Virus record (IMG/VR): IMGVR_UViG_3300027706_000026 | Coordinates: 1 to 40,369 of that record | Source: a virus | Direction: 5' to 3' (one strand) | Length of the DNA stretch: 40,369 nucleotides | Shown: one piece after another, positions 2,450 through 40,369 of the stretch | Position numbering within the stretch: the first letter of the stretch is position 1 | Layout: every line of letters begins with the position of its first letter | Notes under the pieces: generated by a model | Told to the model about the DNA's origin: nothing | Database searches by the model: none | Seen by the model: the letters and a program-made list of their open reading frames with translations, nothing else | Made by a program: the position numbers and the translations under genes

Positions 2450-2495
2450 GCGGTCTTTGTTCCCCCGTTCAGCTTTCGTCAAGGAATCGGGCGTA

Positions 2496-2505
2496 TCGTG
2501 CACGA
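2496..2505. repeat. Palindromic half-site of the integrase-region repeat family
   Basis: TCGTGCACGA is a perfect 10-base palindrome in the non-coding stretch between 2450 and the integrase. Its core GTGCAC is shared with the sites at 2576-2585 and 2623-2651, so at least three related sites lie within 160 bases upstream of, and over, the integrase start. Shared repeats of this kind usually mark binding sites for the integrase itself or a regulator (inference). Confidence 0.5.
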
Positions 2506-2575
2506 AATATAGCTCCCGGACTGCGACCGAAACGCGCCGGGGGCTTTTTCTTTGCGCTCGAGGCGCGGGGCATCT

Positions 2576-2585
2576 TGCACGATAA
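2576..2585 (+). repeat. Direct copy of the integrase-region repeat
   Basis: TGCACGATAA occurs here and again at 2624-2633 in the same orientation, 48 bases apart, and in inverted orientation at 2641-2650. It lies just upstream of the integrase start in the non-coding gap. Likely an accessory protein-binding site. Confidence 0.5.
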
Positions 2586-2622
2586 CCGGCCTCCGCCGGC
2601 GTCGCGCGCGACGCCTCAAATC

Positions 2623-2651
2623 ATGCACGATAATCGGGCGTTATCGTGCAT
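2623..2651. repeat. Perfect 11-7-11 inverted repeat, candidate recombinase core or operator
   Basis: Arm ATGCACGATAA (2623-2633), spacer TCGGGCG (2634-2640) and arm TTATCGTGCAT (2641-2651) form a perfect 11-bp inverted repeat around 7 bases. The first three bases of the left arm are the proposed integrase start codon. Inverted 9-13-base arms around a 6-8-base spacer is the geometry of tyrosine-recombinase crossover sites, so this could be the attP core; an autoregulatory operator is the alternative. The geometry is seen directly; both functions are inference. Confidence 0.55.
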
Positions 2652-3603
2652 CGCCGAGCCAGCAAATCCGCCGAATTCGGCGCTCGTGGTGCAGGCCATC
2701 GCGCCGGAGCTCAGAGACGACATCGAAGGGGCCTATTCGCTCAACACCGCCCGGGCCTATCGCGCCGATTGGCGCGACTGGTGCGCCTGGTGCGAAAGAT
2801 CGGGTGTCATACCCACTCCCGCAGCGCCGCGCGCCGTGCGGGACTATCTCGTCGACCTCGCCGCTGGCAAGAAAGTTTCGACGCTGCGCCGGCGGCTCGC
2901 CGCGATCGCGCGCGCGCACAAGATCGCCGGCTATCAATTCGATAGGTCGGATCCGGTCATTCAGCATGCCATGCGGCGACTCGCGCGCGAGCTCGGCACC
3001 GCGCCGAAGGGTCGTGACGCACTGATGACGGCGGACCTGGTGGGTCTGCTCAAGCTCGTGCCGAATACCCTGCGCGGGACGCGCGACCGCGCCATCCTGC
3101 TGATCGTCTTCGCCGGCGGCCTGCGCCGTTCAGAGGCTGTTGACTTAAACATCAACGATCTCGAGTGGCGGCGCGACGGCATCGCCGTGCATTTGCGCAA
3201 GTCGAAAACCGACCAGGCCGGCGCCGGTGAGCTTGTCCTCGTCGAATATGGCAAGCGCGAATCGACCTGCCCTGTGCGGGCGCTGAAAGCCTGGCTCGCG
3301 GGAGCGAAGGTCGAGAGCGGGGCAATCTTCCGTCTCGTCACCGGCGCTACGGCGCTGCCGGATGCCGTCTCCGACCAGCTCGTCTGGCGGCTCATCAAGC
3401 GCTACGGCGCGCGCGCCGGCCTCGACGTCACCATGCTCGGCGCGCATAGCCTGCGCGCCGGCCACGTCACACAGGCGCTCGAGAACGGCGCCGAGCTCGC
3501 CAAGGTCAAGGAGCAGCTCCGCCATCGCCGCCTCGAGACGACGCTCGGCTACAACCGCGGCCGCTCGTTCAAGGGCAACAGCAGCGGGAAGCTCGATCTC
3601 TAG
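2623..3603 (+). CDS. int: Tyrosine site-specific recombinase (phage integrase)
   Basis: A 326-residue tyrosine recombinase catalysing phage integration and excision. An N-terminal SAM-like core-binding domain spans about residues 35-125 (SLNTARAYRADWRDWCAWC onward) and the catalytic domain about 135-320. All six active-site positions are visible: Arg168 (GGLRRSE), Lys195 in the beta-hairpin (LRKSKTD), His275-Arg278 (HSLR), His301 (LRHRR) and nucleophile Tyr310 (TTLGYNRG). The C-terminus is short after the tyrosine. It is XerC-like in size, with no obvious arm-binding domain. The frame is open upstream to 2344, but ATG 2623 follows the end of the previous gene; GTG at 2686 is an alternative start. 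No excisionase gene was recognised nearby. The start codon lies inside a perfect inverted repeat, suggesting autoregulation or an overlapping att site. Confidence 0.92.
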   Translation: MHDNRALSCIAEPANPPNSALVVQAIAPELRDDIEGAYSLNTARAYRADWRDWCAWCERSGVIPTPAAPRAVRDYLVDLAAGKKVSTLRRRLAAIARAHKIAGYQFDRSDPVIQHAMRRLARELGTAPKGRDALMTADLVGLLKLVPNTLRGTRDRAILLIVFAGGLRRSEAVDLNINDLEWRRDGIAVHLRKSKTDQAGAGELVLVEYGKRESTCPVRALKAWLAGAKVESGAIFRLVTGATALPDAVSDQLVWRLIKRYGARAGLDVTMLGAHSLRAGHVTQALENGAELAKVKEQLRHRRLETTLGYNRGRSFKGNSSGKLDL

Positions 3604-36958: not shown

Positions 36959-37414
36959 CTATGCCGCCCGCCTGGGCGATCGTTTGATCGGCTTCGCCTT
37001 GGCCTTCTTCCGCGGCGCCTTCGCGGCGGGCGCGCGCCGGGCGATCATCTCCTCGGCGGCCCGCGCGATGAGGCCCGAGCGCGTATAGCCCTGGCTCTCG
37101 GCATAGGCGTCGAGCCTGGCCAGCACCCCCGAGGACAGCGTGATGTTGATGCGCACGACGCGCTCGGCGGGCTCCTTCAACGGCACGAGGAAGGCGACAG
37201 CGCCAGTCGTGTCGACCGCATCGAGCGGGCTCGGCTCCGGCAGCGCCTCGCCATCCTTCACCATCTCTTCGGTATGAAAGGCGAGAGCTTCCTCGGCCAT
37301 GGCGCGCGCCTCCTCCAGCGTGCTGCCGGCGGTGATGCAGCCGGGAAAATCGGGGAAATCGACGCTGTAGTCGCTATCGGGCGACTTGCGGAGGAGGGCA
37401 ATATAGTGGGTCAT
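36959..37414 (-). CDS. hicB: HicB-type antitoxin with ribbon-helix-helix domain
   Basis: A 151-residue antitoxin. Residues 1-50 have the HicB fold (YIALLRKSPDSDYSVDFPDFPGCITAGSTLEEA), residues 85-125 a ribbon-helix-helix DNA-binding domain (RVVRINITLSSGVLARLDAYAESQGYTRSGLIARAAEEM) and the tail is Lys/Arg-rich. HicB binds and inhibits HicA and represses its own promoter. ATG 37414 begins ten bases after the hicA stop; the frame continues upstream to 37456 inside hicA, but the HicB fold starts at 37414. Toxin first, antitoxin second is the usual order. Confidence 0.9.
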   Translation of the reverse strand: MTHYIALLRKSPDSDYSVDFPDFPGCITAGSTLEEARAMAEEALAFHTEEMVKDGEALPEPSPLDAVDTTGAVAFLVPLKEPAERVVRINITLSSGVLARLDAYAESQGYTRSGLIARAAEEMIARRAPAAKAPRKKAKAKPIKRSPRRAA

Positions 37415-37424
37415 TTCTCGTCCT

Positions 37425-37613
37425 TCACCGGAGTTTGACTTGAGCTTGGCGCTCAATGCTCTTCACGGTGTCGATATGCACATCCTTGCGGGGATGAGGA
37501 ACCGTGGCTCGGCCGGGCTTCGTCGGATGCTTGAAGTGAAGGTGGCTGCCCTTCTGCGCGACGCGGTACCATCCATCGGCCTCAAGCTTCGCGATAATGT
37601 TCCGGCTATCCAT
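37425..37613 (-). CDS. hicA: HicA-type toxin, mRNA interferase
   Basis: A 62-residue HicA toxin (double-stranded-RNA-binding-like fold) that cleaves mRNA and arrests translation. The catalytic His is His24 in KGSHLHFKHP, and the family pattern NIIAKLEADGWYRVAQKGSHLHFKHPTKPGRATVPHP is complete in pieces. It is directly upstream of hicB. The ATG has no Shine-Dalgarno and follows the -10 box by only six bases, so the transcript may be leaderless. In a prophage it could stabilise the element or defend the lysogen. Confidence 0.9.
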   Translation of the reverse strand: MDSRNIIAKLEADGWYRVAQKGSHLHFKHPTKPGRATVPHPRKDVHIDTVKSIERQAQVKLR

Positions 37614-37672
37614 AGTGTGTATATATGCACACTCAAGCGGAAATCAAGACCCATTGTGTATTAGTGTGTATC
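37614..37672 (-). promoter_or_regulatory. hicAB promoter and palindromic operator
   Basis: On the minus strand TTGATT, 16 bases and TATATA, ending 6 bases before the hicA ATG. On the plus strand AGTGTG (37614-37619) and CACACT (37628-37633) are inverted repeats around TATATATG, covering the -10 box; more TGTGTA copies lie at 37655-37660 and about 37665-37670. Good operator candidates for the HicB ribbon-helix-helix domain. Confidence 0.65.
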
Positions 37673-38814: not shown

Positions 38815-40369
38815 CTAGAGAAAGAGGAGGTCGGTCGCGACCACGCTGCCACGCGCCGGATAACCGGCGAAGCCGAGCGTATGCAGCCGGCCGAGCGCGT
38901 TGGTGAACCCCTTGGAGTTGAGATGCCCATAGCCGGCCGCGGCCGCGATCTCCTCGCGCGGGACGGCTTGGGGATAGCGTTCGACCAGCGCGCGGATGAT
39001 CCGACCTTCGGCGCCGCCGAGCAATGACGCGATGCGCCGCTGGAGCGCCTCGCTGGTCAGCGGCGCCTCGGTGAACTCGGCGGCGCGCATTCCATCGTCG
39101 GTGAGCGCGACCTTGCCTCGCTCGGGATAAGAGATAAGCCCGGCCGAGCTCAACGCGCCGAGTCCGTTGGTAAAGCCCTTCGAGTTGAGATGGCCGTATC
39201 CGGCGAGGAAGGCTGCGAGCACGCGCGGCGCGCGGTCGACGCCGAGCGCACGGAGCTCGGCGAGGCCGTCGAGGATGCGCTGCTGCGGTCCCGGCAAGGC
39301 GCCGCTGCAGACATTGGTGCGCCCGGCGGGAGTCGAACCCGCCGCCTCCCGGCTCGGAACCGGGCGCTCTCTCCGCTGAGCTATGGGCGCAGGCGAGGTC
39401 GGTGGCACGCGGCCAATGTCGAGCGACCGCGCCAGGATCTTCTGAGCCGTGGCGGCGCTCTGGCGGATCTGCTCGAAAAGCGGCGCCGCTTCGTCGATCG
39501 CCACGCGCTGCTGCGCCAGCATATGGGCGACGGCCTCTTTCAGCCCGTCGCGCCGGCCGGCCTCCACGCCGGAGAGATAAGCCGCGTCGCGATCGGCCTT
39601 GGCCTTGACCGGATCGGCACTACCCTTGGCGAGCGCGCGCTCGAGCTCGGCGACGCGCTGCCGGAGGCGCTTCGGGTCGTTGGCTTCGGCCTCCTTCGCG
39701 ACGCTCGCGAGCCGTCCCTTCAGCGCCTCGATGTTGAGTGGCTTGAGCTCGGCCTCGTGACGTTTCTCGCCGCGCTTGGGCGTCGCCGAGCTATCGAAGG
39801 TCGATTTGGCGGGGAAGGACACGGTCTCAAGGATGCCGCGGCCGGGGACCCAGACGACGCCATGGCCCACTTGCATGGCGGGCAGCGAGTCCTTGATCGC
39901 CTTCCCCTGCTCCTTGTCGGCCTGGCCCTCGATCCAGGCGTCGATCGCGTCGCGGTCTTGGGTCGATGTCAGCTTAAAGGCGATGAGGCCGTCGACTTGG
40001 CTCAGCACATTCTTGTTAATGACCGCGGGCCGCTGCGAGATCACCCACGGGATGAAACCCTTCACGCGGCCGCGGCGCACGATCTGTTCCATGCGGTTGA
40101 GCAAAGTCTCGTCGCCCTTCGGCGGCTTCTGCGGTGCGAAGAGGTCGGCTTCGTCGACGATGAGGTGAAAGGGCTCGCCCGCGGCCTTGCGGAAGATCGT
40201 CTCGAGGAATTCGGTCATGAACTGGCGCTCGGCCGTTTTCGTCCCGAGCTGGCTCAGTTCGACGATGCAGCTCTCCGCCATGGTGACGGCGGTCTCGCCG
40301 ATCAGTGCCCCTGCGCGCTCGTTAAGCGGCAGATCACCGTGCGGGCCGCCGAAGATGACGACGTTGAAC
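38815..40369 (-). CDS. HerA/FtsK-type ATPase, 5' end outside the window
   Basis: A HerA-like ATPase fragment of 517 residues, open to the right edge with FNVVIFGGPHGDLPLNERAGALIGETAVTM before the first ATG (40281), so the P-loop region is outside. Walker B is in FHLIVDEADLFAPQK, and VISQRPAVINKNVLSQVDGLIAFKLTSTQDRDAI matches HerA-family sensor and arginine-finger regions. After a coiled coil (RLASVAKEAEANDPKRLRQRVAELERAL) the linker contains a complete tRNA gene in the same strand. Two winged-helix-like repeats end the protein (AGYGHLNSKGFTNGLG and AGYGHLNSKGFTNALG), about 90 residues apart. Probable role: DNA translocation or processing; a defence or recombination role is possible. Stop TAG overlaps a Shine-Dalgarno for the next gene. 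Confidence 0.75.
   Translation of the reverse strand, partial: FNVVIFGGPHGDLPLNERAGALIGETAVTMAESCIVELSQLGTKTAERQFMTEFLETIFRKAAGEPFHLIVDEADLFAPQKPPKGDETLLNRMEQIVRRGRVKGFIPWVISQRPAVINKNVLSQVDGLIAFKLTSTQDRDAIDAWIEGQADKEQGKAIKDSLPAMQVGHGVVWVPGRGILETVSFPAKSTFDSSATPKRGEKRHEAELKPLNIEALKGRLASVAKEAEANDPKRLRQRVAELERALAKGSADPVKAKADRDAAYLSGVEAGRRDGLKEAVAHMLAQQRVAIDEAAPLFEQIRQSAATAQKILARSLDIGRVPPTSPAPIAQRRERPVPSREAAGSTPAGRTNVCSGALPGPQQRILDGLAELRALGVDRAPRVLAAFLAGYGHLNSKGFTNGLGALSSAGLISYPERGKVALTDDGMRAAEFTEAPLTSEALQRRIASLLGGAEGRIIRALVERYPQAVPREEIAAAAGYGHLNSKGFTNALGRLHTLGFAGYPARGSVVATDLLFL
39315..39390 (-). tRNA. tRNA-Arg(CCG) with encoded CCA, inside the ATPase frame
   Basis: A full 76-base cloverleaf: acceptor GCGCCCA/CGGGCGC (only position 7-66, A-C, mismatched), D arm GCTC/GAGC, anticodon arm CCCGG-TTCCGAG-CCGGG with anticodon CCG, variable AGGCG, T arm GCGGG-TTCGACT-CCCGC, then A73 and encoded CCA. 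It decodes CGG (Arg); A20 and A73 fit arginine identity. It runs in the same direction as the ATPase gene and is read in frame as PIAQRRERPVPSREAAGSTP. Confidence 0.85.

Follow-up and report, generated by a model that had tools for sequence, protein, structure and literature searches.

The palindrome at positions 2623-2651 of the window, the whole 40,369-bp virus record that was analysed, is very probably the DNA site that is cut and rejoined by the adjacent tyrosine recombinase, P0001. Comparison with relatives of the enzyme makes it likely that the palindrome is the core site of the recombinase encoded downstream, and that the two form a plasmid-type module which would convert the extrachromosomal genome of a phage-plasmid into circles or monomers. 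Recombinases of this lineage are associated with such sites, the spacer between the arms of the sites is constrained to 6 or 7 bp, and in one pair of sister sites a sequence junction lies inside the spacer.

The gene for P0001 occupies positions 2623-3603 (+ strand) and encodes 326 aa if translation starts at the ATG at 2623. The protein has an N-terminal SAM-like domain (PF02899) and a catalytic domain (PF00589) according to Pfam, and its matches in the PDB are XerD, XerA (an archaeal XerC-like protein) and Cre. The active site is complete (R169, K195, H275, R278, H301 and Y310) and largely conserved among relatives, giving P0001 the R-K-H-R-H/W-Y residues of a two-domain tyrosine recombinase. 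The sequence-only reading placed the palindrome on the integrase start codon; an ATG is indeed found there, but its use as the start is less certain, as the reading frame continues upstream without a stop as far as 2344 and the first 25 or so residues are unconserved. No clear Shine-Dalgarno sequence precedes this ATG, and GTG 2686 or GTG 2689 are possible alternative starts.

Regarding the palindrome itself, the window sequence contains a perfect 11-7-11 inverted repeat, exactly where it had been reported. The left arm ATGCACGATAA (2623-2633, + strand) and the right arm TTATCGTGCAT (2641-2651, - strand) enclose the 7-bp spacer TCGGGCG (2634-2640), the putative overlap region and crossover interval, as judged from the lineage spacers of 6 or 7 and the break between two sister sites (L050 and L060, below). 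By itself the palindrome is insignificant window-wide: among 300 simulated windows, built from the base-transition frequencies of the real window, 51 contain a perfect repeat with arms of at least 11 and a spacer of 5-9 (17%, mean 0.27), so that outside evidence is needed. Comparison with recombinase relatives provides it, and strongly supports the earlier proposal of a tyrosine recombinase core site.

The search for relatives of P0001 points to plasmids. The best phage matches are below 32% identity (tblastn), and 2,942 plasmid records match the protein, the top ones with about 40% identity along almost its entire length; the best plasmid relatives have about 36-42% identity. Annotated plasmid neighbourhoods of the relatives often have parA/parB, rep or toxin-antitoxin genes nearby, and some relatives are on chromosomal contigs. 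Peptide patterns revealed no close relatives of P0001 in viral_contigs or genome_contigs, there were no DNA-level relatives among phages, and a close relative of this phage with the same module was not found. Conservation of the module among TerL relatives was also considered and rejected, as neither recombinase nor site is present in the flanks fetched for them (HMM positive control 94/94). Among 299 sampled genomes of the phylum, 35 contain the recombinase lineage.

Sites similar to that of the window accompany these relatives. Of 12 plasmid relatives, 10 have a GATAA-N6/7-TT palindrome upstream of the recombinase gene or of the operon that contains it, with 7-9 of 14 positions paired in the weakest of the ten. 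A total of 76 loci, gathered by recombinase protein search in one family and one phylum, were surveyed for an anchored inverted repeat pairing at 10 or more of 13 positions, since leaving out the TAA/TT anchor gave too much noise in GC-rich DNA. Upstream of the gene there are 39 such hits, in 15 loci at spacer 6 and in 24 at spacer 7; there is one repeat at spacer 5 and none at 3, 4 or 8-12. Downstream, none was found at spacer 6 or 7, the single match having spacer 5. Because the anchor was picked after viewing the plasmid sites, the weight of the survey rests on these controls, namely the other spacers and the downstream side. No recognisable site was found within 1.3 kb upstream in 25 of the 76 relatives. 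Across the lineage, a site made of inverted arms and a short spacer of fixed length is conserved beside the gene; it can lie as much as about 900 bp away from the recombinase and can also precede other genes of the operon. Complete plasmids have one linked site each, in a count made with a loose pattern that also catches unrelated matches, mostly in AT-rich plasmids. The Roseomonas recombinase sites have an arm identical to the inner arm block of the window, GCACGATAA. In a quick tree of the recombinases, the GCACGATAA-arm label is strongly clustered (6 changes vs 19.1 when shuffled, 0 of 500 shuffles as low). The recombinase of the window has a long branch (1.22) of uncertain placement and does not group with the Roseomonas clade in which these arms occur.

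Starting from the site, a scan of 257 Gb for GCACGATAA-N7-TTATCGTGC identified 45 stretches, of which 36 are in Roseomonas-type genomes; simple base counting predicts about 4. A lineage recombinase is present within the fetched DNA in 23 of the 45, with the site upstream of it in all 23, and the spacers vary widely among sites. Two of these loci, L050 (R. rosea) and L060 (R. pecuniae), are alignable for 4 kb away from the recombinase and identical in the sampled stretches; the identity ends within the spacer, and the sequences differ beyond it. Another pair from one genome (L026 and L036) has the left flank and the spacer in common, and not the right flank. Recombination at the spacer would leave such patterns, and as the L050/L060 break is inside the spacer, such sites look like natural crossover points. 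Alternatively, a homologous exchange could have ended there by chance, which is possible and less likely. This one clear junction within a spacer belongs to Roseomonas sister sites and not to the site of the window itself.

Some further features of these sites were observed. Contigs of one Roseomonas genome can contain the same 7-bp spacer (L025/L058/L061, L026/L036, L038/L041, L051/L055 and L052/L062), and spacers are not always private to one replicon. In Roseomonas loci such as L019, L038, L053, L054 and L062, about 25 bp of conserved sequence (CCAAGGGGCGGG...) borders the site at only one of its arms, which suggests that it is an accessory or promoter element. Lone AGGCACGATAA-N7-TTATCGTGCCT sites occur in the viral contigs L014, L015 and L016, and G001 and G002 each have a lone site close to one contig end (at most about 310 bp away) and an unrelated integrase at the other; lone sites in viral contigs may be a sign of host DNA or of a hotspot for prophage insertion. 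With a gap of 6 bases, the same arms are found in 17 mostly low-GC phage contigs (L064-L080), some of them near terminase or helicase genes. None of the 17 has the lineage recombinase, and these sites were rejected as part of the lineage; they are probably part of another system, possibly its operator.

The extra half-sites that the sequence-only reading had described upstream of the palindrome are present and exceed what chance gives, with two within 350 bp where 0.09 would be expected. The first, TGCACGATAA, is an isolated half-site and an exact recurrence (2576-2585, + strand). The second is the TCGTGCACGA palindrome at 2496-2505, contained in a longer segment, AATCGGGCGTATCGTGCACGA (2485-2505, + strand), in which AATCGGGCG-T-ATCGTGCA (2485-2502) matches AATCGGGCGTTATCGTGCA (2632-2650) with one base missing. 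Since the spacer is also repeated there, which had been overlooked, this segment is a decayed direct repeat of the spacer and right arm, with the left arm missing. Extra half-sites were rejected as a family feature, because the 45 relatives with a site have 6 of them against 6.0 expected; at this chance level, the half-sites of the window are peculiar to this phage. Those at 2485-2505 and 2576-2585 are probably additional putative recombinase-binding sites, accessory or auto-regulatory, and a relic of a duplicated core is favoured for 2485-2505. The crowding of half-sites into the 160 bp upstream, together with a -10-like GATAAT within the core (2629-2634), would also suit a site that mainly controls transcription of int, as an operator to which a repressor or the integrase binds, instead of a recombination site. 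We consider this very unlikely, because no sigma-70 promoter was found upstream of int, the homologous sites can be distant from the recombinase or precede other operon genes, extra half-sites are not shared by the family, and both the strict spacer of 6 or 7 and the junction inside a spacer suit recombination. An operator function is possible as a second role of the site.

The palindrome could alternatively be the attP of an integrating temperate phage, as the sequence-only reading had suggested, which would join a chromosomal or plasmid attB with the same spacer and thereby split the start of int from its promoter. The core architecture adjoining int is that of tyrosine recombinases, some relatives are on chromosomal contigs, and Roseomonas genomes hold resident sites with identical arms that could possibly serve as attB. 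However, a search of 397 Acetobacteraceae genomes for TCGGGCG between similar arms found no real attB candidate, although the host may lie outside these genomes. The one near-miss, GGGACGATAA-TCGGGTG-TTATCGTCCC in L230, precedes a recombinase with 41% identity and is therefore that enzyme's own site. No second site or flanking att copy was found within about 100 kb of the two chromosomal relatives that were checked, the nearest relatives are plasmid-type, and Pfam finds no lambda-type arm-binding domain in P0001. Phage-like genes are present on both sides of the site, the order near int being unknown genes (one PHROG-matched), int, MTase, HNH, TerS, TerL and portal, which argues that the sequenced molecule is probably not integrated through 2623-2651. 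For these reasons we consider attP an unlikely identity for the site; with no attB, no flanking copies and one linked site per plasmid, resolution or monomerisation is favoured over integration. The associated proposal of a self-limiting design, in which recombination disconnects int from its promoter, also finds no support, since resolution between identical sites restores the promoter arrangement and nothing is disconnected.

The rest of the window was also inspected. The record is classed as linear, has no end repeats and is probably a fragment; no replication or partition (rep/par) genes were found among the window genes scanned. A HicB-like antitoxin (36959-37456, - strand; Pfam PF15919, E 1.8e-29), which is not adjacent to the site, is compatible with plasmid-like maintenance. 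The small ORF upstream of it (37463-37654, - strand) has no Pfam match and may encode a HicA toxin. A tRNA-Arg (CCG) with an encoded CCA was identified at 39315-39390 (- strand; ARAGORN; Rfam 55.9 bits). It sits inside an open frame (38815-40281, - strand) that reads through the tRNA, between the HerA-like ATPase part and the C-terminal repeat-bearing part of the frame.

Comparison with known systems helps to place the module. The inner arms ATAA/TTAT of the site resemble dif and pdif sites, and the plasmid XerCD sites cer, psi and pdif have a core with these inner arms and occur once per replicon, as in the lineage studied here. This similarity raises the possibility of a XerCD (pdif-type) site that serves the XerC and XerD of the host, with its position beside int being incidental. 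We consider it extremely unlikely, because the spacer is 7 and not 6, the arms are perfectly symmetric, the arms track the recombinase tree, and in the survey such sites (spacers 6 and 7) are upstream and never downstream of lineage recombinases. XerCD/dif sites have a 6-bp centre with dissimilar XerC and XerD arms, and cer, psi and pdif depend on host XerC/XerD; the lineage, with its own recombinase, symmetric arms and the spacer of 7, is not of this kind. The single-recombinase Xer systems XerS/difSL and XerH/difH, in which one recombinase is linked to its own dif-like site, are more similar in this respect, but they act at chromosome termini (PMC2731167, which also gives the dif layout as 11-6-11). 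The lineage of the window is mostly on plasmids, and its arms are near-perfect palindromes; as noted, P0001 matches XerD in the PDB. Cre-type recombinases have lox-like sites beside the gene (PMC4957104), and Cre/loxP of P1 keeps the plasmid prophage monomeric (PMC2409434). In common with P1 Cre/loxP, Dre/rox, Vika/vox, Nigri/nox and Panto/pox, a phage or plasmid tyrosine recombinase here has an inverted-repeat site nearby. Unlike lox sites (13-8-13), that of the window is 11-7-11, and no lineage site in the survey has the 8-bp spacer that defines the Cre family proper along with 13-bp arms. P0001 and Cre share about 29% identity along half of the protein, which together with the 7-bp spacer places the system outside Cre/loxP. 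A rhizobial Cre-like recombinase, CDS5 of pSmeLPU88b, lies beside repABC and toxin-antitoxin genes, and its authors propose concatemer resolution and plasmid maintenance (PMC10194956); by this description, it resembles the P0001 lineage in having rep and toxin-antitoxin genes as neighbours on plasmids, and the description cited here includes no recombination site. The system thus appears to work like Cre/loxP or single-recombinase Xer and to be a member of neither Cre/loxP nor XerCD/dif. Related ideas occur in PMC4957104, PMC10194956, PMC2731167 and PMC2409434, and the literature reachable outside most subscription journals yielded no account of the sites of the lineage; the novelty is provisional to that extent.

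A Cre/lox-like monomerisation module of a phage-plasmid is therefore the most likely reading. On plasmids, enzyme-site pairs of this kind usually maintain circular DNA in single copies and do not insert it into the chromosome. In the proposed mechanism, two P0001 monomers would bind the inverted arms, where GCACGATAA would be the inner block that they recognise. They would cut at the edges of the 7-bp spacer and swap strands with a second, identical site. Recombinase and site would form a self-contained module of plasmid type, and recombination would take place, as in P1 Cre/loxP, between two site copies carried by multimeric or terminally redundant phage DNA, leaving the extrachromosomal genome circularised or monomerised. 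From the comparisons above, we infer that P0001 binds and cleaves the site, that multimers are resolved in this way in this phage, and that the phage lives as a phage-plasmid.

A bolder extension, which we offer tentatively and regard as possible rather than probable, is that the module belongs to a widespread and apparently undescribed plasmid lineage. Many replicons of one cell would carry similar recombinases and identical arms, with the 7-bp spacer acting as a replicon bar code that is the main thing keeping them apart. Where spacers match, plasmids and phages could swap segments, as L050/L060 and the shared spacers suggest. In this phage the enzyme could also use the decayed second site, which lies 147 bp upstream and has the same spacer, to cut out its own promoter region. 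Multi-plasmid Roseomonas genomes permit testing whether the spacer alone prevents replicon fusion. The lineage, found in 35 of the 299 phylum genomes sampled, is a source of many naturally occurring pairs of recombinase and site, with spacers of 6 or 7 bp, that are useful as tools. For this phage, the annotation 'integrase' becomes a testable recombinase-site pair, and the likely lifestyle call moves from integrating prophage to plasmid-like maintenance.
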